34,715 nucleotides of DNA, taken from assembly GCA_020847765.1 (NCBI GenBank), contig JADLBJ010000072.1, forward strand, positions 1 through 34,715. The letters run 5' to 3'. The DNA comes from Dehalococcoidia bacterium. Lineage in GTDB: Bacteria > Chloroflexota > Dehalococcoidia > Tepidiformales > Tepidiformaceae. Every line of letters begins with the position of its first letter. Positions within the stretch are counted from its first letter, which is position 1. The position numbers were made by a program, and so were the translations under genes. This document shows positions 2,945-14,029 of this stretch, piece after piece. The notes under the pieces were generated by a model. The model had not been told where the DNA came from and did not search any database. It worked only from the letters and a program-made list of their open reading frames with translations.

Positions 2945-4019
2945 TCGGCCAGCGCCGCCGTGTACTGTTCGACCGTGAAGTGATCGGCTATCGTTCGCCG
3001 CCCGCCGGCGCCCAGCGTGGCCGCGAGATCTGCGTCGCTGAGCAGGCGCACGAAGGCGGCACGTAGGGCACCTGCGTGGCCCGGGGGAACGTAGACGCCC
3101 GCGTCGGCGGCGTCGCCGGGGCCGCGTCCGGCGGTGGCGGCCCGGTCCAGCATGCCGTCCGGGCGCATCAGGGCGCCGCGAACGTACTCGCGCTGGCCGC
3201 GGGTCGCACTGACGACGACCGGCCGCCCCATGCTCATGGCCTCGAGCAGCGTCGTTACTCCGGACTGGTTGGCGACGTCCTCGAGTGGGACGGCGACGAC
3301 GGCCGCCTGCTCATAGAGGCGGCGGAGGTCGGCGAAGGGCAACGGCGCCGTCAAGAGCTCGACGTTCGCCGGGAGGTTTCCCGCTTGGGCCGTCTTGCGT
3401 GCCCAGTGGCTCCCGGCGGCGATCACGACGCGAGCGCGCAGGCCGCGCACGGCGGCCACCAGCGTGCGGTAGTCGCGGTTCTCCGAGCCCACTGCCAGGA
3501 TCAGGGGCAGGTCACCGGCCAGGGGCGAGCCGCCCCGCCAGAAGTCGGCGTCGACTTGATAGGGCACCTGGCGCACCAACCAGCTGCGACCGACGGCGGC
3601 GCGCGCCGTCCGGGCCTGCTCCTCGCTGTGGACCACGACGACCCCTGCGGTCGAAGTCCGAGTTGCCAGGCGCAGCAGGATGCCTTTCCAGGGCTTGCTC
3701 AGCAGGTGGCCGAGCATCACCACCCGGCGCCCGCGCTGGAGCCTGAGAGCGAGCACGAGGAGCAGGGGCACGCCCAGGTGCTCGCCGTCGGCGAAGATCG
3801 TGTCGCCCGGACGACTGAGACTGGCCGCCTGCCATGCCTGGCGGAGGTGCGGACCCAGGAGGCGGCCGCCCCAGCCGCGCCGAGGGCTGCCCGTGCGATA
3901 GATGACCGGCGCGTCGAGCCGGCGAGCGACCTCCAGGAAGTCGCGACGCGGTCCGCAATCCACGAGGCGGGCTGTCTCGTCGTGGGAGGCGCTGACGACC
4001 AGGATGGTGCGCCCATTCA
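2878..4019 (-). CDS. glycosyltransferase family 4
   Basis: Start taken at MNGRTILVVSASHDE, overlapping the stop of the upstream GT. LILAVGSENRDYRTLVAAV and VVAVPLEDVANQSGVTTLLEAMSMGRPVVVSATRGQREYV are GT4 hallmarks. Confidence 0.85.
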
Positions 4020-5057
4020 TGACGCGAGATCCTCGAGCAGGGCGAAGACGCGGCGCGCGTTCCCCCTCGCGTCCATGTGGTCGCGGGCGTGCTCGCGCGC
4101 GCGCAGCCCCAGCCTCTGCCGTTCGCTGGCGTCGTCCACCAGGCGGCACAGGGCAGAGGTCAGCGCCGGTTCGTCTCCGGGTGGGACGAGCAAGCCGCTC
4201 TCGCCGGGCGTCACCGTCTCCGCGTTGGATCCGACCGTCGTCGTCACGACCGGCAGACCCGCGGCCATCGCTTCGCCGATAGCGACCGAGGTGCAGTCAC
4301 CGCGCGTCGGGAGGCAGAAGACGTCGGCCTCGGCATAGGCGCGCAACTGACGGTCGCTGCCCGGACGAACCCCGCGTTCGACGCGCACACCCGGCTGGGG
4401 CGCAACGGGCGCGTCGGTGACGAGCACGAGTTCGGCGCGGTCGGAGAGCGGGGCGAAGGCCCGGAGGAGGGCGGGGCCACCTTTACGCACGAAATCACCC
4501 CCCACGAAGAGGATGCGCGGGCGGGCCGAGACGCTCTTGCGGGGGAGCAAGAAGAACGACCGCGGCGCGCCCGGGTGGGCAACGAGCACCCGCGCACGAT
4601 CGACCCCGTAGTCGCGAACGAGCGAATCGGCGGCCCATTCCGACCAGGCGACGAACGCGCCAGCACCCTTGAAGACGCGGCGGTAGACGGCAGCCTTGCT
4701 CTCCTCCAGCGGGCGCGGGGCGCGTCGATGGGCGTACCAGCGGCCCATCGCGTCTATCTGAACCGGCGTCGCGTCGACGCTGACCGCGTACCGTCCGCGG
4801 CGCACGGCTAGCGAGGCAAGGAGCGAGATCGTCTGCGTGTGGAACAGGACGGCGCGATAGGGCGGGCGGGCGCGGAGCTGCTGGAGTGCGCTGGCGCTGC
4901 CACGCAGAGCCCAGGGCAGTGCGAAGGTGCGGCCCGTGGGGAACGCCACGCGAATGACGTCGGCCGACTGCCTGCACTGGGCCGCCGCCTGCTCCAGATT
5001 GAGACCATGAGCGCGGTGGCCGAGCGTCTGCTCAAGACAAAGGGCGATTTCGGTCAC
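4017..5057 (-). CDS. glycosyltransferase family 4
   Basis: GTG start with GGGAGG about 8 nt upstream. RILFVGGDFVRKGGPALLRAF and CLPTRGDCTSVAIGEAMAAGLPVVTTTVGSNAETVTPGESGLLVPPGD. Confidence 0.88.
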   Translation of the reverse strand: MTEIALCLEQTLGHRAHGLNLEQAAAQCRQSADVIRVAFPTGRTFALPWALRGSASALQQLRARPPYRAVLFHTQTISLLASLAVRRGRYAVSVDATPVQIDAMGRWYAHRRAPRPLEESKAAVYRRVFKGAGAFVAWSEWAADSLVRDYGVDRARVLVAHPGAPRSFFLLPRKSVSARPRILFVGGDFVRKGGPALLRAFAPLSDRAELVLVTDAPVAPQPGVRVERGVRPGSDRQLRAYAEADVFCLPTRGDCTSVAIGEAMAAGLPVVTTTVGSNAETVTPGESGLLVPPGDEPALTSALCRLVDDASERQRLGLRAREHARDHMDARGNARRVFALLEDLAS

Positions 5058-5101
5058 GCGTTGAACCTCCCTGGTGCTCCTCGTTGAGCGTGCGCGGCGC
5101 C

Positions 5102-5141
5102 CGTTGAGGTTGAGTTGATCGACGGTCGATCGCGGGTTATG
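5102..5141 (-). promoter_or_regulatory. tandem heptamer array (4 repeats, 11-bp period) upstream of the 5057 GT unit
   Basis: Minus strand: CATAACC-CGCG-ATCGACC-GTCG-ATCAACT-CAAC-CTCAACG, 45 nt before the GTG start. Confidence 0.6.
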
Positions 5142-5146
5142 GGCGG

Positions 5147-6097
5147 TCAGGAGGCGGCAGCCGACAGGGCACTGGCAAGAGCGCGGCGGTACTCGAGGTC
5201 ATAGACAACGCTCAGGGCACGGAGGGCACTGCCGCGGCGTCTGGCGGCGAACAGAGCGCGAGCGCTGGCCAGGGCGGCGGCGCGGACAGCGGGCAACCCG
5301 CCCGGCAGCCGGCGCGTGGCGTTCGACGCCAGCTGGACGAGACGGCCACGTTCCCGCAGTTCGCCGCCTATTACGTCCAACCAGCGCTCTTCCGGGTAGG
5401 CGAGGTCAATCTTCACGTCGGCGCGGGCGTATTGGCGGGGGATGGCGAGCCAGCTGGCGAGCGAGCGCCGTGCACGGTGCCAGGCGGCCGCGCGCGGCTC
5501 GAACACGAAGCGACAGCCGAGCCGGCTGAGACGGAGGCCAAGCTCGATGTCCTCGGCCCGCGTGAAGGACTCGTCGAAGCCGCCCGCGGCGAGGAAGTCT
5601 GCCCGCCGGAGGGCGGCATTGCCCGTGAAGAACTGGCGCCAGGTTGGGGCGTAGAGCCCGCGGGCCATGCGCGCGTACTCACGGTCGAGGGTCGCCGCCT
5701 CCCAGAAGTTCCACGGCGTAGGACGCCAGTCGGGCGGGGCGAGCAGTGGCCCGAAGACGACGCGCCGATCGCCTTCGGCCAGCGCCGCCATGTGCCAGCG
5801 AAGGAGGTCAGGCATGGCCTCCACGTCATCGTCGATGAAGGCCAGGACGTTCGCCGTGCTGAGCGCCGCGCCGGCATTCCGGGCAGCAGCCGGGCCCCCA
5901 TTCGCCCGTACGACGACGCGGAGCGCGAGCGCATGGGCGACCGCAGCGGGGATCCCGCCTGCCACGGGCGGGTCGCTGCCGTCGTCGACGACGATCACGC
6001 CGAAGTCGCCAAACGTCTGTTCGCAGAGCGCCGCGAGGCAGCGGAGAAGCTGTTCCTGCCGGTTGCACGTGGGGATGACGACGTCGAGGGCGGGCAT
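5147..6097 (-). CDS. glycosyltransferase family 2
   Basis: Start at MPALDVVIPTCNRQEQLLRCLAALCEQ; VIVVDDGSDPP, VLAFIDDDVEA, DESFTRAEDIELGLRLSRLG (ED motif). Confidence 0.92.
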   Translation of the reverse strand: MPALDVVIPTCNRQEQLLRCLAALCEQTFGDFGVIVVDDGSDPPVAGGIPAAVAHALALRVVVRANGGPAAARNAGAALSTANVLAFIDDDVEAMPDLLRWHMAALAEGDRRVVFGPLLAPPDWRPTPWNFWEAATLDREYARMARGLYAPTWRQFFTGNAALRRADFLAAGGFDESFTRAEDIELGLRLSRLGCRFVFEPRAAAWHRARRSLASWLAIPRQYARADVKIDLAYPEERWLDVIGGELRERGRLVQLASNATRRLPGGLPAVRAAALASARALFAARRRGSALRALSVVYDLEYRRALASALSAAAS

Positions 6098-6098
6098 G

Positions 6099-7556
6099 CT
6101 ATGCCTCCATGTCCAGCTTCGAGGGCTGATCGCGCTGCAGGAACGCGAGGGAGAGAACCACGCCCAGGGGAACGGCCGTGCGGGAACCGACGAGGGCCAT
6201 GTCGATGCGCGCATAGGCGAGGTACATGACGAGGACGGCAGCGAGCACCAGGGGGACCGCCGGGACATGGTCGCGCGGGGTGCGTGCGAAGGCGGCGAGA
6301 CAGCGACGCAGGGCCAGCACCCAGGTGCCGAGGAGGACGGCCGCGCCGACTGCGCCCGTCTTCAGCCACAGCCAGAGGATGTTCTGGTGGGGTGTATAGA
6401 GCTGGAGCGGCCAGAACGGCAGCTCGGGCAGCCTCACTGAAGTCTCGAATGGCCGACCAAAGCCGACGCCGAAGAGGGGATGTGCTCGCAGCGTCGCCTC
6501 GACGTTCGCGCGCTCGTCGCTGCGGTAATGGTCGGAGCTACGATCGCGCGCGTCGGGGTCGACTTGCGAGCGGACGGCACGCGCCGGTTCCGCGAGCGGA
6601 CCGCTATTCCCGTCCCAGTACACGCTGAGATAGCTCGCGCCCACGAGGAGGAGAGCCGTGCCCATGCCGAGGAGAAGGGCGGGCCGCCGGGGAAGCAGCA
6701 TCCAGCCAACGACCAGAGCACCGGCCGCCACCACGAGAATGGCGCTGCGCCGACCAGTCATCAGCAGGGCGGCCGCCATGAGAAAGGTGTAGCCGGTAGC
6801 CAGAAGCCGGGCACGGTCGCCGCGTACGCGAAGTTGGACGACAAGGCCCATGAGCACGCCGACGCCGAGAAAGAGGCCGGTTTCGTGGGCGAACCAGAAC
6901 TCCATCGGGGCGGCTGTCCGCCCGTTCTGGAGGTAGAAGAGGTAACGGACGACGGCCACCGCGCCGAGCAGGCTCGTGGCCGCGAATGCTGCGCGGACGG
7001 CGGCGCGCTCGCCCCAGCCGCGGCATTCCCGGGTGACGACGAAGGCGACGAGGGCGAAGAGCAGGCCGCGTGCTTCGTTGTAGGCAATGCCGGCGCTCCC
7101 GCCCTGATGAAGGCCATACACGAACCCGGCCAGCAGGACGAAGGGCGTCGCCCGCGCGATCAGGGGCAGGCCGGGCGAGGGACGTGCGTGCCGCCCGACG
7201 CGCAGGCTGAGAGAGGCAAGCGCGAGCAGCAGGAGCAGCTCGAACAGATTGGTCTTCAGGGGCAGGGCGATTCCCGCCGGCGCGTTCCAGAGGCTCCGGG
7301 CGAGCGGGCTAGTGAAGTCGACCTCGGCCGCGTCGATCCCCACGCCCGCCGCCAGGACGGCGAGGGCGAAGGAGCGAGGCTCCGCGAGCGCCCACCCCAG
7401 CAGCAGGGCCACAAACGGAAGGAGAGCCGCCGTGGGGCCGATTGCGAGCACCGCCACGGCCGAACCGAAGGCGGCCAGGATACTGGCCGCGGCCAGCAAC
7501 GGCGCTCCCACAGGCAGCCGCATCCCCGGGAAAACGGCAAGGCCCTCAGCCCGCAT
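6099..7556 (-). CDS. O-antigen ligase/polymerase (Wzy-like) integral membrane protein
   Basis: Multiple hydrophobic helices; the HPLFGVGFGRPFE...YTPHQNILWLWLKTGAVGAAVLLGTWVLAL segment is typical of O-antigen ligase/Wzy family proteins. Confidence 0.82.
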   Translation of the reverse strand: MRAEGLAVFPGMRLPVGAPLLAAASILAAFGSAVAVLAIGPTAALLPFVALLLGWALAEPRSFALAVLAAGVGIDAAEVDFTSPLARSLWNAPAGIALPLKTNLFELLLLLALASLSLRVGRHARPSPGLPLIARATPFVLLAGFVYGLHQGGSAGIAYNEARGLLFALVAFVVTRECRGWGERAAVRAAFAATSLLGAVAVVRYLFYLQNGRTAAPMEFWFAHETGLFLGVGVLMGLVVQLRVRGDRARLLATGYTFLMAAALLMTGRRSAILVVAAGALVVGWMLLPRRPALLLGMGTALLLVGASYLSVYWDGNSGPLAEPARAVRSQVDPDARDRSSDHYRSDERANVEATLRAHPLFGVGFGRPFETSVRLPELPFWPLQLYTPHQNILWLWLKTGAVGAAVLLGTWVLALRRCLAAFARTPRDHVPAVPLVLAAVLVMYLAYARIDMALVGSRTAVPLGVVLSLAFLQRDQPSKLDMEA

Positions 7557-7692
7557 GGCCGACCGCCAGGAGAACGAGCATCGCGCCGCCGGTGAGCGCG
7601 AAAACCAGAATGGACTCGGAAGGGATGGCGGCCGTGAGCGGCCGCCAGGTGAGCAGCGCAGCCACGGCGACGAGGAGAGCGACGAGGATCAT
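7546..7692 (-). CDS. 48-aa hydrophobic microprotein, probably 1-2 transmembrane helices
   Basis: ATG at 7692, TGA at 7546-7548: MILVALLVAVAALLTWRPLTAAIPSESILVFALTGGAMLVLLAVGHAG. Fills the gap between the CpsD-like gene (stop 7702) and the polymerase gene (start 7556, 11-nt overlap). Below the supplied ORF length cut-off. Confidence 0.6.
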   Translation of the reverse strand: MILVALLVAVAALLTWRPLTAAIPSESILVFALTGGAMLVLLAVGHAG

Positions 7693-7701
7693 CGCGTCAG
7701 C

Positions 7702-8511
7702 TCACTGCGGCATCGCAAGGAGTCGCTCCATCCAGCGGGGCACGCGCGACCGCTGTCGGTTGATCACGACACCGAGCACGTTCGCGTCGCGCAGCAGGTG
7801 CAGGGAGCGTTCGAGGTCTCGCTGTGAGGTGTGGCCAGCGCGGACGACGACTATCACGCCGTCACAGCGCCGGGCGAGCACCGGCGCGTTCATGGAATGC
7901 AGGGTCGCCGGCAGGTCGAGAACGACGAAGCCGCTCGTCGCTTTCATCGTCTCGACGAGCGGGGCAAGCCGCTCGGAGCGCGCCATGCGGGCAGGATCGC
8001 CAGCAGCGTTGCCGGCAGTGACCACGCTCAACGACGCGCGCCGGTGCCGGTACGTCACGGCTGCCAGGGTAGATGCGCCGGCAATTGCGTCCGAAAGACC
8101 GCGGCGGCCTTCGAGACCGTACTCTCTCCCCACAGAGTGAGTGTGGAAATCGGCGTCGACGAGCATGACCTGCGCCCCGAAGTCGTGGGCAAGGGAGCTG
8201 GCCAGGGCTATCGCCATTGTCGTCTTGCCGTCGCCGTAGTCGGGGCTCGTGACGCCGATCGCGAGCGACCGGGGCGCGGCCGCCAATGGGAGCTGCACGA
8301 TAGGCGCGGGGAGAGTGACCGCGAGACTCCCGCGAATGCCTTTGAAGCCACGCAGGCCAGCGACGGCAGCAGGCGATCCGCAGGGCTGCGTGAGCAGCCG
8401 CGCAGACGCCACCGGGACCGCCAGGTGCTCCCCGAGCCCAGCCATCAGCTGGATCTCGCGAATCGCCTCCGCGAGGTCGGTCATTGCCCGACGGTCGGCT
8501 ACAGCGGTCAT
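7702..8511 (-). CDS. CpsD/CapB/BY-kinase-like P-loop ATPase of the EPS system
   Basis: Walker A SPDYGDGKTTMAIALASSLA, Walker A' VMLVDADF, Walker B-like FVVLDLPA; ATGA overlap with the Wzz-like gene. Confidence 0.83.
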   Translation of the reverse strand: MTAVADRRAMTDLAEAIREIQLMAGLGEHLAVPVASARLLTQPCGSPAAVAGLRGFKGIRGSLAVTLPAPIVQLPLAAAPRSLAIGVTSPDYGDGKTTMAIALASSLAHDFGAQVMLVDADFHTHSVGREYGLEGRRGLSDAIAGASTLAAVTYRHRRASLSVVTAGNAAGDPARMARSERLAPLVETMKATSGFVVLDLPATLHSMNAPVLARRCDGVIVVVRAGHTSQRDLERSLHLLRDANVLGVVINRQRSRVPRWMERLLAMPQ

Positions 8512-9563
8512 CGGCGGCCACTTTCCCCACCGGCCAGGGGCAAGAGCGCCGCCGCCATTCGCCGGGCGTAGTTTCGGCGGCGGCGCGCCAGCAGCCGCAG
8601 CGGTGTATAGCGCTGCAGCCAGCCTCGGTGCCCGATCTCCGGGACCGTCCCCAGGAGCGGGACCCCGCCGCCGGCGATGTCGGCACGCGAGCGGATAGTG
8701 TGGTCCGCCCGGTAGCGGAAATAGATTGCACCCACGCCGACGACCGCGCCGAGAAACAGCGCGGCCGCGGGATAGCCATAGCGCGTGGTCGCGGGAACCG
8801 CCTCGGGAGCGGTCGGAAGGCTGGGAGGGTCCTGCACGGTTAGCGTCACCTCCTGCAGCCCGCTGTCGCCGGCGGCCTTGAGACGCGCCTCCCGTAGCGC
8901 CTGTGCGAGGCCGTCGACCACGGTGGTGGCCGTGTCGACCCGGCTCTGCAGCCGTTCGTGCTCAGGGTCGGGGCCGGTCGCGCCGGGCGCGATCGGGTGG
9001 ACTTTGGTATAGGCGGCGAGTTCGGCCTGCGCGGCGCTCAGCTCGCCGTTGGCCGCGACGAGCTCGCGCTGGTAGGAATCGAGGAGGGCGGCCGCCTGGC
9101 GAGCGGTCTCGGAGAGAGCCCGCGCCTGGAACTCGGCGATGACGGCGACAGCGACGCGCTGCGCCCTATCGGGTGCGGCATTGCTGACGATGACGCCGAG
9201 GAGGTTCGGCCCGATGGCGGCGGCGCTCGCGCCGGCTGCGACTTCGTCCCCGGCTGCGGCGCGAGCTTCGGCGGGGGCCTCAGCCGCGACCAGGCCGGCG
9301 GCGACGGCGACGGCCTCTCGGAACGCCGCAGTGGCCAGGAGGTCGCCGAGCACCTGGACCTGCGCTTTCGCCGCGGTCATCTGCGGGTCGTTCACATACG
9401 AGGTGGAAGCCAAAGCACCCGCCGCTACCCAGACGGTGGCTCGGGACGCGTAGACAGCCGGGTGCCGCGCGAGCGCAACGACGAGCGCGGGCGCCAGGAC
9501 GACGGGCAGGACGAACGCCCACCAGTGGCTGAAGGCGGTTTCGACCAGCTTGCGTGGAATCAC
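8508..9563 (-). CDS. Wzz/chain-length determinant-like protein; GTG start at 9563 preferred over the 9593 ATG
   Basis: N-terminal TM (WWAFVLPVVLAPALVVAL), coiled-coil-like middle, C-terminal TM (YPAAALFLGAVVGVGAIYFRYR). GGAGGG precedes GTG(9563); the 9593 ATG has no Shine-Dalgarno sequence. Confidence 0.8.
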   Translation of the reverse strand: MIPRKLVETAFSHWWAFVLPVVLAPALVVALARHPAVYASRATVWVAAGALASTSYVNDPQMTAAKAQVQVLGDLLATAAFREAVAVAAGLVAAEAPAEARAAAGDEVAAGASAAAIGPNLLGVIVSNAAPDRAQRVAVAVIAEFQARALSETARQAAALLDSYQRELVAANGELSAAQAELAAYTKVHPIAPGATGPDPEHERLQSRVDTATTVVDGLAQALREARLKAAGDSGLQEVTLTVQDPPSLPTAPEAVPATTRYGYPAAALFLGAVVGVGAIYFRYRADHTIRSRADIAGGGVPLLGTVPEIGHRGWLQRYTPLRLLARRRRNYARRMAAALLPLAGGESGRR

Positions 9564-9606
9564 GTCGCCCTCCGGTGGCTGCTTGGCGGTCATCGTCGCG
9601 AAAGGA

Positions 9607-9624
9607 GGTGGAGCGCGCGTTGAG
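9607..9624 (-). promoter_or_regulatory. tandem heptamer pair (11-bp period) upstream of the wzz-like unit
   Basis: Minus strand: CTCAACG-CGCG-CTCCACC, 44 nt from the GTG start at 9563. Confidence 0.5.
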
Positions 9625-9710
9625 GAGCGGGCGTGTAGTCCCCGTTCTGCCCCGTCCCGTTCACGCGCTCTTCACTCTGGGCGCACGAGGCTCGGCACGG
9701 CGGCCTTCCC

Positions 9711-10424
9711 TCAACAGGAGCCCGTGCCTCTGACGACGGTGCCCGCTGTTCGCAGGAGAATACGGAGGTCGAGCCAGAAGCTCAGCCGGCGGGCGTATTC
9801 AAGGTCGAGGGCGACCATGTCGGCGAAGTCATGGCGGCCCCGGAGCGTGACCTGCCACAGGCCAGTCATTCCGGGCGTTACGGCCAGCCGTTCGAAGTGC
9901 TCGGGGCGGTAGAGGGCGACCTCCGCGGGCAGGGGCGGACGCGGGCCGACGAGGCTCATCTCGCCGCGCAGCACGTTCCACAGCTGCGGCAGCTCATCGA
10001 GGCTGGTGCGCCGCAGGAAGCGCCCAACGCGCGTCCGGCGGGGGTCGTCCTTCATCTTGAAGATGAGCCCGTTCGCCTCGTTTCGGTCCGACAGGACAGC
10101 CTGCAGCTCCGCGGCGTTCCGAACCATGGAGCGGAACTTCCAGCAGCGGAACAGGCTTCCGCCCCGCCCGACGCGATGCTGCCGATGGAAGGGGCCACCG
10201 CGGCTGTCGACGACCACAGCGACAGCGATGAGCGCGATGAGCGGCGCGAGCAGCAACAGGCCCGACGCGGCGCCAAAGAGGTCGATCGCCCGCTTCCAGG
10301 CGGGCGTTGGGACCAACGCCTGGCCAGTGGCCGCCTCCGGCACGCTGAGACCGGATGGCGGGACCAGGACGGTGGGGGCGAGAGTCTCGACGACGGCCTC
10401 ACGGGTAAGGGTGGGAGCTGTCAT
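9711..10424 (-). CDS. undecaprenyl-phosphate sugar phosphotransferase (bacterial sugar transferase family)
   Basis: KRAIDLFGAASGLLLLAPLIALIAVAV...FHRQHRVGRGGSLFRCWKFRSMV...RRTSLDELPQLWNVLRGEMSLVGPRPPLPAEV...PGMTGLWQV. Confidence 0.95.
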   Translation of the reverse strand: MTAPTLTREAVVETLAPTVLVPPSGLSVPEAATGQALVPTPAWKRAIDLFGAASGLLLLAPLIALIAVAVVVDSRGGPFHRQHRVGRGGSLFRCWKFRSMVRNAAELQAVLSDRNEANGLIFKMKDDPRRTRVGRFLRRTSLDELPQLWNVLRGEMSLVGPRPPLPAEVALYRPEHFERLAVTPGMTGLWQVTLRGRHDFADMVALDLEYARRLSFWLDLRILLRTAGTVVRGTGSC

Positions 10425-11764
10425 GCCGACACCTCGAGTTGCTCGAGGGCAGCGGGCGCGGGCCGCTGCTTGTTGCCCGGACGGCCGATGCAGCGGTACT
10501 CGAAGCCGGCGGCCGCGAGGGTGCGGGGTTCGAGTGCGTTGCGCGCGTCGATGACGACGGGGCGAGCCACGACGCGGGCCACGGCCTGCCAGTCGAGAAG
10601 CTGGAACTCGAGCCAGTCCGTCGCGAGGACGACCGCCTCGGCGTCGCGGGCGGCCTCGAGCACGCTGGCGGCGACAGCGACGCCGGGCACCGCGTCCTGG
10701 ACGCGGCGCGCCTGAACGACAGGGTCGTAGACGGTGACGCGCGCACCTTCGAGCTGCAGCAGCGATGCCAGGGCGAGGGCCGGTGAATTCCGGATGTCGT
10801 CGGTGTTGGCCTTGAACGAGGCCCCAAGGATGGCGACCCGAGCGTCGTCCAGAACGCCGACCGCCTCGCGCACCTTCTGGAGTGCGCGGAACTGCTGGTC
10901 CCGATTGATCTCCATGACGGAGCGGAGGAGCTGGGGGTGCGCACCGTGGACCGCGGCCATGTGAGCGAGCGCTTTCACGTCCTTGGGGAAGCAGCTGCCG
11001 CCCCACCCTAGCCCGGCGCTCAGGAACTGGTGACCGATTCGGCTGTCCATCCCCATGCCGCGGGCGACCTCGGCGACGTCGGCGCCAAGCGCTTCGCAGA
11101 TGGCGGCGATCTCGTTGATGAACGAGATCTTGGTGGCGAGAAACGCGTTGGAGGCGTACTTGATCATCTCAGCGGTGCGGATGTCCACGCGTTGCACGTG
11201 CGCCTCGAGCGGGCCATAGAGATCGGCAACACGGTCGATTGCGACGCGGTCGTCCGAACCGAGAACGATCCGGTCGGGGTTCATGAAGTCGCTGATGGCC
11301 GAGCCTTCGCGCAGGAACTCGGGATTGGAGACGACGGCGAACGGGCACTGGCCGCTGCGGCGCGCCATGCCGACGACGAGGTCGCCGGTGCCGATCGGGA
11401 CAGTGCTCTTGTTGACGATGATGGAGCCGGGTTGCAGCCGGGCGGCGACAGCCGTCACGGCGTCGCGGACGGCACGGATGTCGGCTGCACCTTCCTGGGA
11501 CTCGGGCGTGTTGACGGCGATGAAGACGATCCGCGCCGCGAAGCGGTCGGGGTAGGTGGAGCGAAAGCTCAGCCGGCCGGCGGCGACGCCCGTGCGGAGA
11601 AGCTCGTCGAGGCCCGGCTCGTGGATGGGGCTCCGACCGGCGTCCAGCAGGGCGACACGCTCCGGGTCGGTGTCCACGCATTCGACCTCATGTCCGAGAT
11701 GGGCGAAGCAGGCGGCTGAGACAGCCCCCACGTACCCGCAGCCAATGACGGCAATCCGTGACAC
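10421..11764 (-). CDS. UDP-glucose/GDP-mannose 6-dehydrogenase family
   Basis: VSRIAVIGCGYVGAVSAACFAHLGHEVECVDTD; NPEFLREGSAISDFMNPDRIVLG; GLGWGGSCFPKDVKAL. AAGGAG lies upstream of GTG at 11764. Confidence 0.95.
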   Translation of the reverse strand: MSRIAVIGCGYVGAVSAACFAHLGHEVECVDTDPERVALLDAGRSPIHEPGLDELLRTGVAAGRLSFRSTYPDRFAARIVFIAVNTPESQEGAADIRAVRDAVTAVAARLQPGSIIVNKSTVPIGTGDLVVGMARRSGQCPFAVVSNPEFLREGSAISDFMNPDRIVLGSDDRVAIDRVADLYGPLEAHVQRVDIRTAEMIKYASNAFLATKISFINEIAAICEALGADVAEVARGMGMDSRIGHQFLSAGLGWGGSCFPKDVKALAHMAAVHGAHPQLLRSVMEINRDQQFRALQKVREAVGVLDDARVAILGASFKANTDDIRNSPALALASLLQLEGARVTVYDPVVQARRVQDAVPGVAVAASVLEAARDAEAVVLATDWLEFQLLDWQAVARVVARPVVIDARNALEPRTLAAAGFEYRCIGRPGNKQRPAPAALEQLEVSA

Positions 11765-11798
11765 TCGCCACTCCTTGGGAGATGTCCCTGCACCACCG

Positions 11799-11860
11799 TG
11801 TTCGAGCGGCGTTGAGGGGTGGTTGCCGGGCGGTGGATGGGACGTGGCCCGCGCGTTACT
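11799..11860 (-). promoter_or_regulatory. extended tandem heptamer array (up to 6 repeats, 11-bp period) upstream of the UDP-sugar dehydrogenase unit
   Basis: Minus strand: AGTAACG-CGCG-GGCCACG-TCCC-ATCCACC-GCCC-GGCAACC-ACCC-CTCAACG-CCGC-TCGAACA. Confidence 0.6.
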
Positions 11861-12731
11861 GCCGGGAGAGCACCATGCTGCGAAGGTCGTCAAAGCTGCT
11901 GGCCGGGGGGGCCGCCCGCCGACGGCGCAGGCACCAGGCGGAGGCAACGGCGAGGGCCGGGGCGTCGTGCAGGAGATACCGCCGCCAGAGGCGTCTGGGC
12001 TCCTGAGCGAGCCGGACCAGCCACTCGGCGCCGACGGAGCGCAGGAGCGCGGGCGCACGGCGCCGCCGCCCGGCCAGGAAGTCGAACGTCCCTCCGACGC
12101 CGATCCAGCAGGCGCTCGGGACCACCCGGTAGGAGTCGCGGATGAAGGCTTCCTGACGGGGGCAACCGAGGGCGACGAGCACGAGCTCGGGGCGAGCGCG
12201 CACGAGGTCGTTTAGGCCGGCCCTCAACTCCTCCGGCCGCAGCTGCCGGAACGGCGGCGAGGTGCGGCAGACGACCTGCACGCCCGGATGCCGTGCTTCG
12301 AGGGCCGCGGCAGCCGCCGCCGCGATGGCCTCCGTCGAGCCATAGAAGGCGACACGCAGACCGGCGGGGGCCGCCTGGCGGCAGATCTCCTCGACGAGAT
12401 CGACGCCGGTCACGCGCCGGGCTCGCCGACCGCCGGCGAGGCGCGCGAGCCAGGCCACGGGTGCACCGTCGGCGGTGACGAGCGACGAGCTGCTGAGGGC
12501 GCTTCGGAGGGCCGGGTCCCGTCTTGCCTGGGCAAGGAAGTCGAGGTTCGCCGTCGCGATGCGGGCACCGCTGCGAGCGCGCATCGCTTCGACGCAGAGG
12601 CTGGCCGCTTCCTCGAGCGTGCCGTCGAAGACCGCGACCGGCCCCACCTGCACGTGGCCGGCCCGCGGCTCCGTTGCGTCCTGCCAGCCAGTCGCGACCG
12701 GCCCATTGGGGCTCCTGCGTAGCACCGCCAT
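11856..12731 (-). CDS. WecG/TagA/CpsF family glycosyltransferase
   Basis: ARIATANLDFLAQARRDPALRSAL...LVTADGAPVAWLARLAG...RVTGVDLVEEIC...VLVALGCPRQEAFI...IGVGGTFDFLAGRRRRAPALLRSVGAEWLVRLAQEPRRLWRRYL. Confidence 0.95.
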   Translation of the reverse strand: MAVLRRSPNGPVATGWQDATEPRAGHVQVGPVAVFDGTLEEAASLCVEAMRARSGARIATANLDFLAQARRDPALRSALSSSSLVTADGAPVAWLARLAGGRRARRVTGVDLVEEICRQAAPAGLRVAFYGSTEAIAAAAAAALEARHPGVQVVCRTSPPFRQLRPEELRAGLNDLVRARPELVLVALGCPRQEAFIRDSYRVVPSACWIGVGGTFDFLAGRRRRAPALLRSVGAEWLVRLAQEPRRLWRRYLLHDAPALAVASAWCLRRRRAAPPASSFDDLRSMVLSRQ

Positions 12732-12774
12732 CCCGGACCTCCGCGTTTCCGCAGGGACAAATCTGTGACGGCGG

Positions 12775-12814
12775 AGTGGACGCGCGGTTGAGGGACTGTT
12801 GACGGCCGGTTGCC
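12775..12814 (-). promoter_or_regulatory. tandem heptamer array (4 repeats, 11-bp period) upstream of the WecG-like gene
   Basis: Minus strand: GGCAACC-GGCC-GTCAACA-GTCC-CTCAACC-GCGC-GTCCACT; 44 nt from the start at 12731. Confidence 0.6.
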
Positions 12815-12852
12815 AGTGGGGATACGCCCGCGAACGTCGGGTCGCAGGCATG

Positions 12853-12884
12853 AAAAAGCCGGGACGGCCCATGACCGTCCCGGC
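12853..12884 (-). terminator. intrinsic terminator of the ABM monooxygenase gene
   Basis: Perfect 10-bp inverted repeat GCCGGGACGG/CCGTCCCGGC with 7-nt loop, followed on the minus strand by TTTTT. Confidence 0.88.
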
Positions 12885-12911
12885 GTGGGGAAGGGGGAGC
12901 GCCGCGGTGCG

Positions 12912-13211
12912 CTACACGCCCGCGATCTGCGTGTACCGTTCGATCACGGGCCGGCCGGCGAGCAGGCCCTTGAGCTGGGCGCCCATGGCCTTCATGTGGT
13001 CGGTCTGGCCGTGCGCTTCGAGAGCGGCCGCGTCGGCGTACTGCTCGTAGAACATGAACAGCGCCGGTTCGGCGTCGGACGTATGGAGGGAGTAGGCGGT
13101 CACACGGCCGGCCTCGTGCTGCTTGACGTTGCCGACCATCTCGGTGAGGACGGCGCGCAGTTCGCTCTCCTTGCCGGGCGCAGCCTGCAGCCTGGCGACG
13201 ACGGTGATCAT
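12912..13211 (-). CDS. antibiotic biosynthesis monooxygenase (ABM/YgiN-like) domain protein
   Basis: MITVVARLQAAPGKESELRAVLTEMVGNVKQHEAGRVTAYSLHTSDAEPALFMFYEQYADAAALEAHGQTDHMKAM is the canonical ABM pattern. Confidence 0.92.
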   Translation of the reverse strand: MITVVARLQAAPGKESELRAVLTEMVGNVKQHEAGRVTAYSLHTSDAEPALFMFYEQYADAAALEAHGQTDHMKAMGAQLKGLLAGRPVIERYTQIAGV

Positions 13212-13303
13212 TGGTGTCTTCCTTTCCGGGGGTTGGGGCCGATTCTACGGGCGGTCGCGAACAGCGTCTCGCGCCTCCGCCGCCGGGTTCCTACCATCGT
13301 TCC

Positions 13304-14029
13304 GTGCTGAAACAGATGTCCCCGGCGGCCCGGCACAGGGCGATTGCGCGGGCGCGGGCCTCTGCCCTCAGCGATGCCGCCGTGGGCTATCCCGAATGGT
13401 ACCTGCAACGGTGGCACTTTCTGCCCGAGGGGTATCTGTCGCGCCGGTCGATCGCGGGCTACGACCACCTCATCCGACGCGTGTACTACAGCGTCGCGGA
13501 GCGGGCCGCCCTCAAGCGGCTGGTGGCGAATCTCCCTGCGAACTCGGAAGCCGTGCTGGACCTGGGTTGCGGTCCGGGCCGGGTGCTCGCGGCCGTGGCG
13601 GCTGCCCGGCCTCGGGCGAGGCTCTGGGGACTCGACCTCTCTCCCTTCATGCTCGAACGGGCCCGCACCCGGCTGCGCGAGGCGGCCGAGCGCCTGACGC
13701 TCGTCCATGGCGACGCGGCCCGCCTGCGCTGGCCGGAGGCTGCGTTCGACCTCGTTCTGGCCACGCACGTCCTCGGGCACATGCCCCGGGCGGCGGCGGG
13801 GGCGGCACTCGCCGAAGCGGAGCGCGCCCTCCGGCCCGGCGCGCGGATGCTCGTCGTCGATCACCGCTGGCACGGCCGCCTGCCGACCGCGCTCCGAGAA
13901 GTGCGCCGGGAGCGGCTCGCCCCCGGCTTTGCTGCCCTGTGTGTCTTGGAAAGGCCGATCGCCGACGAGCGGCCCCCCGACGCTGCCCCCGCCGACCCTT
14001 CTCGTCCTTCTGCGGCTGCTCTACGGTAA
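13304..14029 (+). CDS. class I SAM-dependent methyltransferase
   Basis: VLDLGCGPGRVLAAVAAARPRARLWGLDLSPFMLERARTRL, VHGDAARLRWPEAAFDLVLATHVLGHM. GTG 13304 or ATG 13316 start. Confidence 0.9.
   Translation: MLKQMSPAARHRAIARARASALSDAAVGYPEWYLQRWHFLPEGYLSRRSIAGYDHLIRRVYYSVAERAALKRLVANLPANSEAVLDLGCGPGRVLAAVAAARPRARLWGLDLSPFMLERARTRLREAAERLTLVHGDAARLRWPEAAFDLVLATHVLGHMPRAAAGAALAEAERALRPGARMLVVDHRWHGRLPTALREVRRERLAPGFAALCVLERPIADERPPDAAPADPSRPSAAALR

Follow-up and report, generated by a model that had tools for sequence, protein, structure and literature searches.

Period-11 heptamer arrays as a predicted operator and promoter element of polysaccharide genes in uncultured Dehalococcoidia

Operators built from a 7-bp motif and a 4-bp spacer, repeated directly along one face of the helix, are known for the OmpR/PhoB-type regulators Mycobacterium tuberculosis PhoP, Streptomyces coelicolor PhoP, and Escherichia coli PhoB (the pho box). 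For M. tuberculosis PhoP, the 7+4 spacing is strict, and three to four repeats are bound more tightly than two (PMC4832192). Known SARP sites are also direct repeats 11 bp apart, with 8 bp between the 3′ repeat and the −10 element, a poor −35 element, and the −10 sequence CACTGT at afsS (PMC10936776). On the protein side, a set of kinase, canonical regulator, and pseudo-receiver regulator has a known precedent (PMC12548384); in CmrRST of Clostridioides difficile, a system of surface and biofilm traits, the kinase and both OmpR-family regulators are encoded together. In alphaproteobacteria, ChvG-ChvI places an OmpR-type regulator over exopolysaccharide genes. Here, we analyze a 34,715-nucleotide stretch of Dehalococcoidia DNA (the window; JADLBJ010000072.1) in which heptamer arrays precede the transcription units of a polysaccharide cluster. 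The window is the whole of contig C105 of its own assembly (G000; 2.5 Mb, 288 contigs, 79% complete). The kind of operator is already known; what is new is the motif, its regulon, and the assignment of a regulator, and a literature search returned nothing relevant on the motif or on polysaccharide regulation in Dehalococcoidia or uncultured Chloroflexota.

The original prediction had placed 11-bp-period heptamers ahead of all four transcription units of the cluster, headed by wecG, ugd, wzz, and a GT4 gene, and each of these arrays was present (Table 1). Of its proposed consensus, the core T-C-A/C-A-C stood, whereas positions 1 and 7 are almost unconstrained (NTC(A/C)ACN). The ugd array exists but lies at 11810 to 11849 rather than at 11799 to 11838, the supposed unit TCGAACA (11799 to 11805) overlapping the −10 hexamer; a weak fifth unit, AGTAACG, is found at 11854 to 11860. 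With this correction, the near-constant distance from array end to start codon holds at 44, 46, 44, and 45 nt for wecG, ugd, wzz, and GT4, respectively, the previous value for ugd having been 35. When the window was ranked with a matrix trained on other genomes only, the four arrays came top, and the best eight two-unit sites all fell inside them. Dinucleotide-preserving shuffles (2,000 per gap), which had been suggested as a refuting test, almost never reached the arrays. For three units, P was ~0.0005 (the floor) at each of the four gaps; for two units, it ranged from 0.0005 to 0.0025. At period 11, the best two-unit scores summed to 74.5, compared to 26 to 41 at the remaining periods from 7 to 19.

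The arrays also stand in a fixed relation to a promoter element. Aligned on their last heptamer, they share an A at +11 and a T at +15, and this A-N3-T offset recurs in 20 of 36 arrays outside the window (mean of 1.2 at other offsets; P ~ 1e−20). In all four window arrays, a −10 box of the form NANNNT begins 9 bp past the last heptamer and sits 29 to 31 nt ahead of the start codon. These promoters have no consensus −35 element, and the last two units overlie the −35 region; given the fixed 9-bp distance to the −10 box, the array appears to take the place of the −35 element. The two-unit wzz array and the GTG start at 9563, as originally proposed, are supported by the −10 box at the expected place; the resulting N terminus, VIPRK, is conserved among relatives. 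The layout resembles SARP promoters in its 11-bp repeats over a poor −35 region and in a −10 hexamer whose second base is A and whose sixth is T, whereas the distance from heptamer to −10 box is 9 bp rather than the reported 8, a value that depends on how the repeats are delimited. It shares with OmpR/PhoB-type operators the same-strand 7+4 repeats next to the −10 box and covering the −35 region, but differs in its TC(A/C)AC core, usually in three to four units, and resembles the Pho-type heptamers (CTGTCAT/GTTCACC) only in a single-base likeness to GTTCACC. ChvG-ChvI motifs are likewise distinct, being TTGC-N3-GCAA or GCC repeats (PMC9731502) rather than 11-bp TCAAC arrays. As read from sequence, the assignment of the arrays as operator and promoter is strongly supported.

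To assess conservation, we compared Chloroflexota metagenome-assembled genomes labelled Dehalococcoidia (G008, JAGQHB010000106.1; G015, JADLBC010000008.1; G016, JADZEI010000004.1; G005, SKSF01000068.1) or Chloroflexi (G003, JANXYE010000027.1, 82% complete; RBC038, also G302, CADEHD010000015.1). A screen for three KCMAC cores at an 11-bp period, for which the reversed pattern served as control, detected sites adjoining wecG homologues in other genera. A matrix built only from the 14 heptamers of the window was then applied to 24 regions upstream of wecG, ugd, wzz, GT4, and sugar transferase orthologues in the six relatives. On the gene strand, the best scores summed to 311 at period 11, 76 to 115 at periods 7 to 10 and 12 to 21, and 203 at period 22 (two turns); on the opposite strand, period 11 scored 16. 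The conservation anticipated by the original prediction, whose absence was to have refuted it, was found, with arrays upstream of ugd in all six relatives and upstream of wecG, wzz, and GT4 in G008 and G016. Genes lying directly behind another gene had none, namely, the sugar transferase gene in G016, G005, and RBC038 and the GT4 gene and wecG in G015. Across genera and families, the period, strand, spacing, and position of the arrays are kept. Cluster and module loci, 304 kb in all, yielded 29 array sites. A further 400 kb taken from elsewhere in these genomes yielded 0, and loci carrying WecG in unrelated organisms (926 kb) yielded 3. With the period set to 9 or 12 instead, the cluster and module loci returned 6 and 9 sites, respectively, probably reflecting codon periodicity. 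Under a model combining array and −10 box (E ≤ 2), the scan of the window's own genome returned five sites, the four window arrays and C178:2446. The last (locus L078, 2442 to 2481, plus strand; TTCAACA ggca CTCAACG) lies directly upstream of a gene that reads as nonribosomal peptide synthetase-like, a name taken from its sequence and offered as a lead only. In G003, the array of locus L252 (C260, 1499 to 1527, plus strand) and its downstream promoter match that genome's ugd promoter almost exactly and precede short secreted-looking proteins; it is possibly a copied promoter cassette.

In the relatives, a candidate regulator is encoded by a module of a HisKA histidine kinase (HK), a canonical response regulator (RR1), and a pseudo-receiver regulator (RR2). 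Both regulators carry OmpR-type DNA-binding domains with a conserved recognition helix; the receiver residues of RR1 are intact, and RR2 lacks the phospho-acceptor Asp. The module adjoins wecG in G005, G015, G016, and RBC038 (in the last, in the order HK-RR1-RR2-wecG-[array]-ugd) and lies on a separate contig from wecG in G008 and G003. In G016, G008, and G003, it additionally contains a LuxR/GerE protein and a third winged-helix protein (wHTH3). RR2 orthologues (E < 1e−67) occur in exactly 5 of the 36 other genomes of the family, the same five that carry a WecG orthologue (G003, G005, G008, G015, and G016); this has a chance of ~1 in 377,000 if the genes are independent, and it is not fully independent evidence, since they are physically linked in three of the five. 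RR1 shows identical co-occurrence with WecG in the family genomes searched. A class-wide search detected RR2-like genes in other families, with arrays nearby in G052, G091, G176/G259, and G043; RR2-like genes accompanied by arrays occur in families f8, f17, and f26. An AlphaFold model of RR2 (mean predicted local distance difference test score, 83) matches OmpR/PhoB-family structures in the PDB and adds little to the sequence. Arrays upstream of module genes themselves (RR1 in G091, RR2 in G052, and wHTH3 in G008 and G015) suggest that the module is autoregulated. Like CmrRST, the relatives encode an adjacent kinase, canonical regulator, and Asp-less regulator; unlike it, they belong to an unrelated phylum, and RR2 does not carry the Glu that CmrT has at the Asp position.

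Several neighboring observations concern regulators of this kind. A 245-amino-acid (aa) regulator (locus L068, 5744 to 6481, plus strand) and its homologues combine an OmpR-type domain at the C terminus with an N-terminal half that matches nothing in Pfam; arrays lie upstream in G008 and G015. Locus L173 (G016:C4:218000-237999) holds, at 7827 to 13469, a paralogous kinase-LuxR-RR1-RR2 set inside a cluster resembling those for ribosomally synthesized and posttranslationally modified peptides (RiPPs), with variant, weaker arrays at 7827 to 7855 and 13441 to 13469, both on the minus strand. By eye, this cluster encodes asparagine synthase-like and PqqD-like proteins and is possibly a lasso peptide locus, a lead only; the G043 neighborhood resembles it, again by names read from the sequences. 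Compared with the known OmpR/PhoB boxes, the arrays differ both in their targets, polysaccharide and RiPP-like clusters, and in the associated sensor-regulator set.

The period, strand, spacing, and conservation of the arrays, together with the OmpR-family pair that is linked to the cluster and co-occurs with it in relatives, fit the original proposal of a shared OmpR/PhoB-type operator through which a regulator encoded outside the window would coordinate the polysaccharide operons. We consider it very likely that the reader is an OmpR/PhoB-type protein and probable that it is the HK-RR1-RR2 module. In the explanation that we favor with fair confidence, each array would be an activator site built into its promoter. 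Winged-helix protomers would line up head to tail on the TC(A/C)AC cores, each occupying one 11-bp turn. As the last two units overlie the −35 region, the bound regulator would probably recruit sigma factor and RNA polymerase to this region, in the manner of PhoB and SARPs. The short histidine kinase would phosphorylate RR1, which may bind alone or together with RR2. Binding, activation, and the identity of the regulator are all inferred here. A bolder version, which we hold to be speculative, is that phosphorylated RR1 and RR2 form mixed head-to-tail filaments on arrays of two to five heptamers, these serving as transplantable promoter cassettes that switch surface polysaccharide and RiPP or secondary metabolite clusters in several Dehalococcoidia families.

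Some results weigh against this explanation. A gene for a linked regulator with REC and Trans_reg_C domains is present in relatives but not in the window or its own assembly, and in that 79% complete assembly no close homologue of RR1, RR2, or wHTH3 was found; the assignment for the window therefore rests on the relatives. The available data do not distinguish RR1 from RR2 as the reader. Scores with the window matrix are low for several wecG and wzz orthologues, G141 has the module and only weak arrays, and G022 and G001, two genomes of the family that lack the module, each contain one isolated array. That of G022 (locus L072 on C27, 7491 to 7530, minus strand) is a good array near a sugar transferase start in a separate polysaccharide cluster. 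Finally, activation rather than repression is likely from the geometry alone.

These points bear most directly on the alternative that a different, unlinked OmpR-family protein, such as a PhoB/PhoP- or MtrA-like global regulator, reads the arrays and that HK-RR1-RR2 merely travels with the cluster. The arrays without RR1/RR2 in the window's own genome and in G022 would be expected under this reading; among solved structures, MtrA comes closest to both RR1 and RR2, and the S. coelicolor PhoP site GTTCACC-N4-GTTCACC (PMC4832192) is one base off the GTCCACC seen in arrays. We nevertheless judge it improbable. When whole genomes were scanned, all of the 17 strongest sites, most of them within the cluster, belonged to the window's own genome or to module genomes (the source of the training sites of the model), and none of 12 module-free genomes had a site as strong; moreover, RR2 co-occurs with the cluster even from another contig (G008), and RR2-type genes adjoin arrays in further families. 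A SARP/BTAD reader, the alternative left by the original prediction, would suit the 11-bp repeats and their placement near the −10 box, but was rejected as highly improbable: BTAD proteins are equally common in genomes with and without strong arrays, none was found in array-bearing G003, at the completeness given above, and none matched inside the polysaccharide loci.

It is very unlikely that the arrays are LuxR/GerE sites, wHTH3 sites, or repressor operators. Both the LuxR and the wHTH3 genes belong to the module in three relatives, but LuxR was not found in RBC038 and a close wHTH3 was not found in RBC038 or G005, which keep their arrays, and both candidates were rejected on that account; arrays upstream of wHTH3 itself would befit a target. 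A repressor could also act at arrays that overlie the −35 region, yet these promoters offer no consensus −35 element that would allow strong unaided transcription. That the heptamers are degenerate and were picked after looking could point to a chance or compositional artifact of GC-rich intergenic DNA. The probability of this is negligible in view of independent training and testing, the period and strand controls, the same-genome background, and the conservation across genera, and it was rejected.

Pfam matches in the minus-strand polysaccharide cluster itself identify a WecG-type glycosyltransferase, Ugd, a sugar transferase, an ATPase, a Wzy_C-type ligase/polymerase, and several glycosyltransferases; the cluster also encodes the Wzz-like protein, which has no such match. 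The cluster genes abut or overlap inside the four units (Table 1). The wzz unit has the order wzz-ATPase-small open reading frame-wzy-GT2, and the last unit runs from 5057 down to 511 with the GT4 gene at its head. The unlisted 48-aa open reading frame between the ATPase gene and wzy (7546 to 7692, minus strand; MILVALLVAVAALLTWRPLTAAIPSESILVFALTGGAMLVLLAVGHAG) aligns with orthologues in five relatives, has no Pfam match, and probably encodes a two-helix membrane protein. Since this conserved frame fills the apparent fifth gap at 7557 to 7701, the earlier statement that the cluster has only four sizeable gaps stands. Immediately upstream of the wecG array, a GC-rich hairpin and T run seen by eye on the minus strand (12853 to 12890; CCGGGACGG...CCGTCCCGG-CTTTTT) is likely a terminator that insulates the cluster.

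Table 1. Genes, operator arrays, and −10 hexamers of the polysaccharide cluster (window coordinates)
Feature	Position	Strand	Details
wecG, WecG/TagA/CpsF glycosyltransferase	11856..12731	-	Pfam PF03808
wecG operator array	12775..12814	-	4 units, GGCAACC GTCAACA CTCAACC GTCCACT, 4-bp spacers; shuffle P ~0.0005
wecG promoter −10 hexamer	12760..12765	-	CAGATT; 9 bp past array
ugd, UDP-glucose/GDP-mannose dehydrogenase	10421..11764	-	PF03721, PF00984, PF03720
ugd operator array	11810..11849	-	4 units, GGCCACG ATCCACC GGCAACC CTCAACG
ugd promoter −10 hexamer	11795..11800	-	CACGGT
Sugar transferase gene	9711-10424	-	PF02397; overlapped by ugd
wzz-like gene, GTG start 9563	8508..9563	-	No Pfam match; named from position and orthologues
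wzz operator array	9607..9624	-	2 units, CTCAACG CTCCACC
wzz promoter −10 hexamer	9592..9597	-	GACGAT
GT4-type glycosyltransferase gene	4017..5057	-	PF13692, PF00534
GT4 operator array	5102..5141	-	4 units, CATAACC ATCGACC ATCAACT CTCAACG
GT4 promoter −10 hexamer	5087..5092	-	CACGCT

Taken together, these results define an operator, describe a complete promoter layout, and name a candidate regulator for the polysaccharide genes of uncultured Chloroflexota. What began as a pattern in sequence becomes a set of DNA-protein pairs open to direct testing. In addition, having a specific DNA site for a canonical and pseudo-receiver pair would make the function of the pseudo-receiver testable with purified parts.

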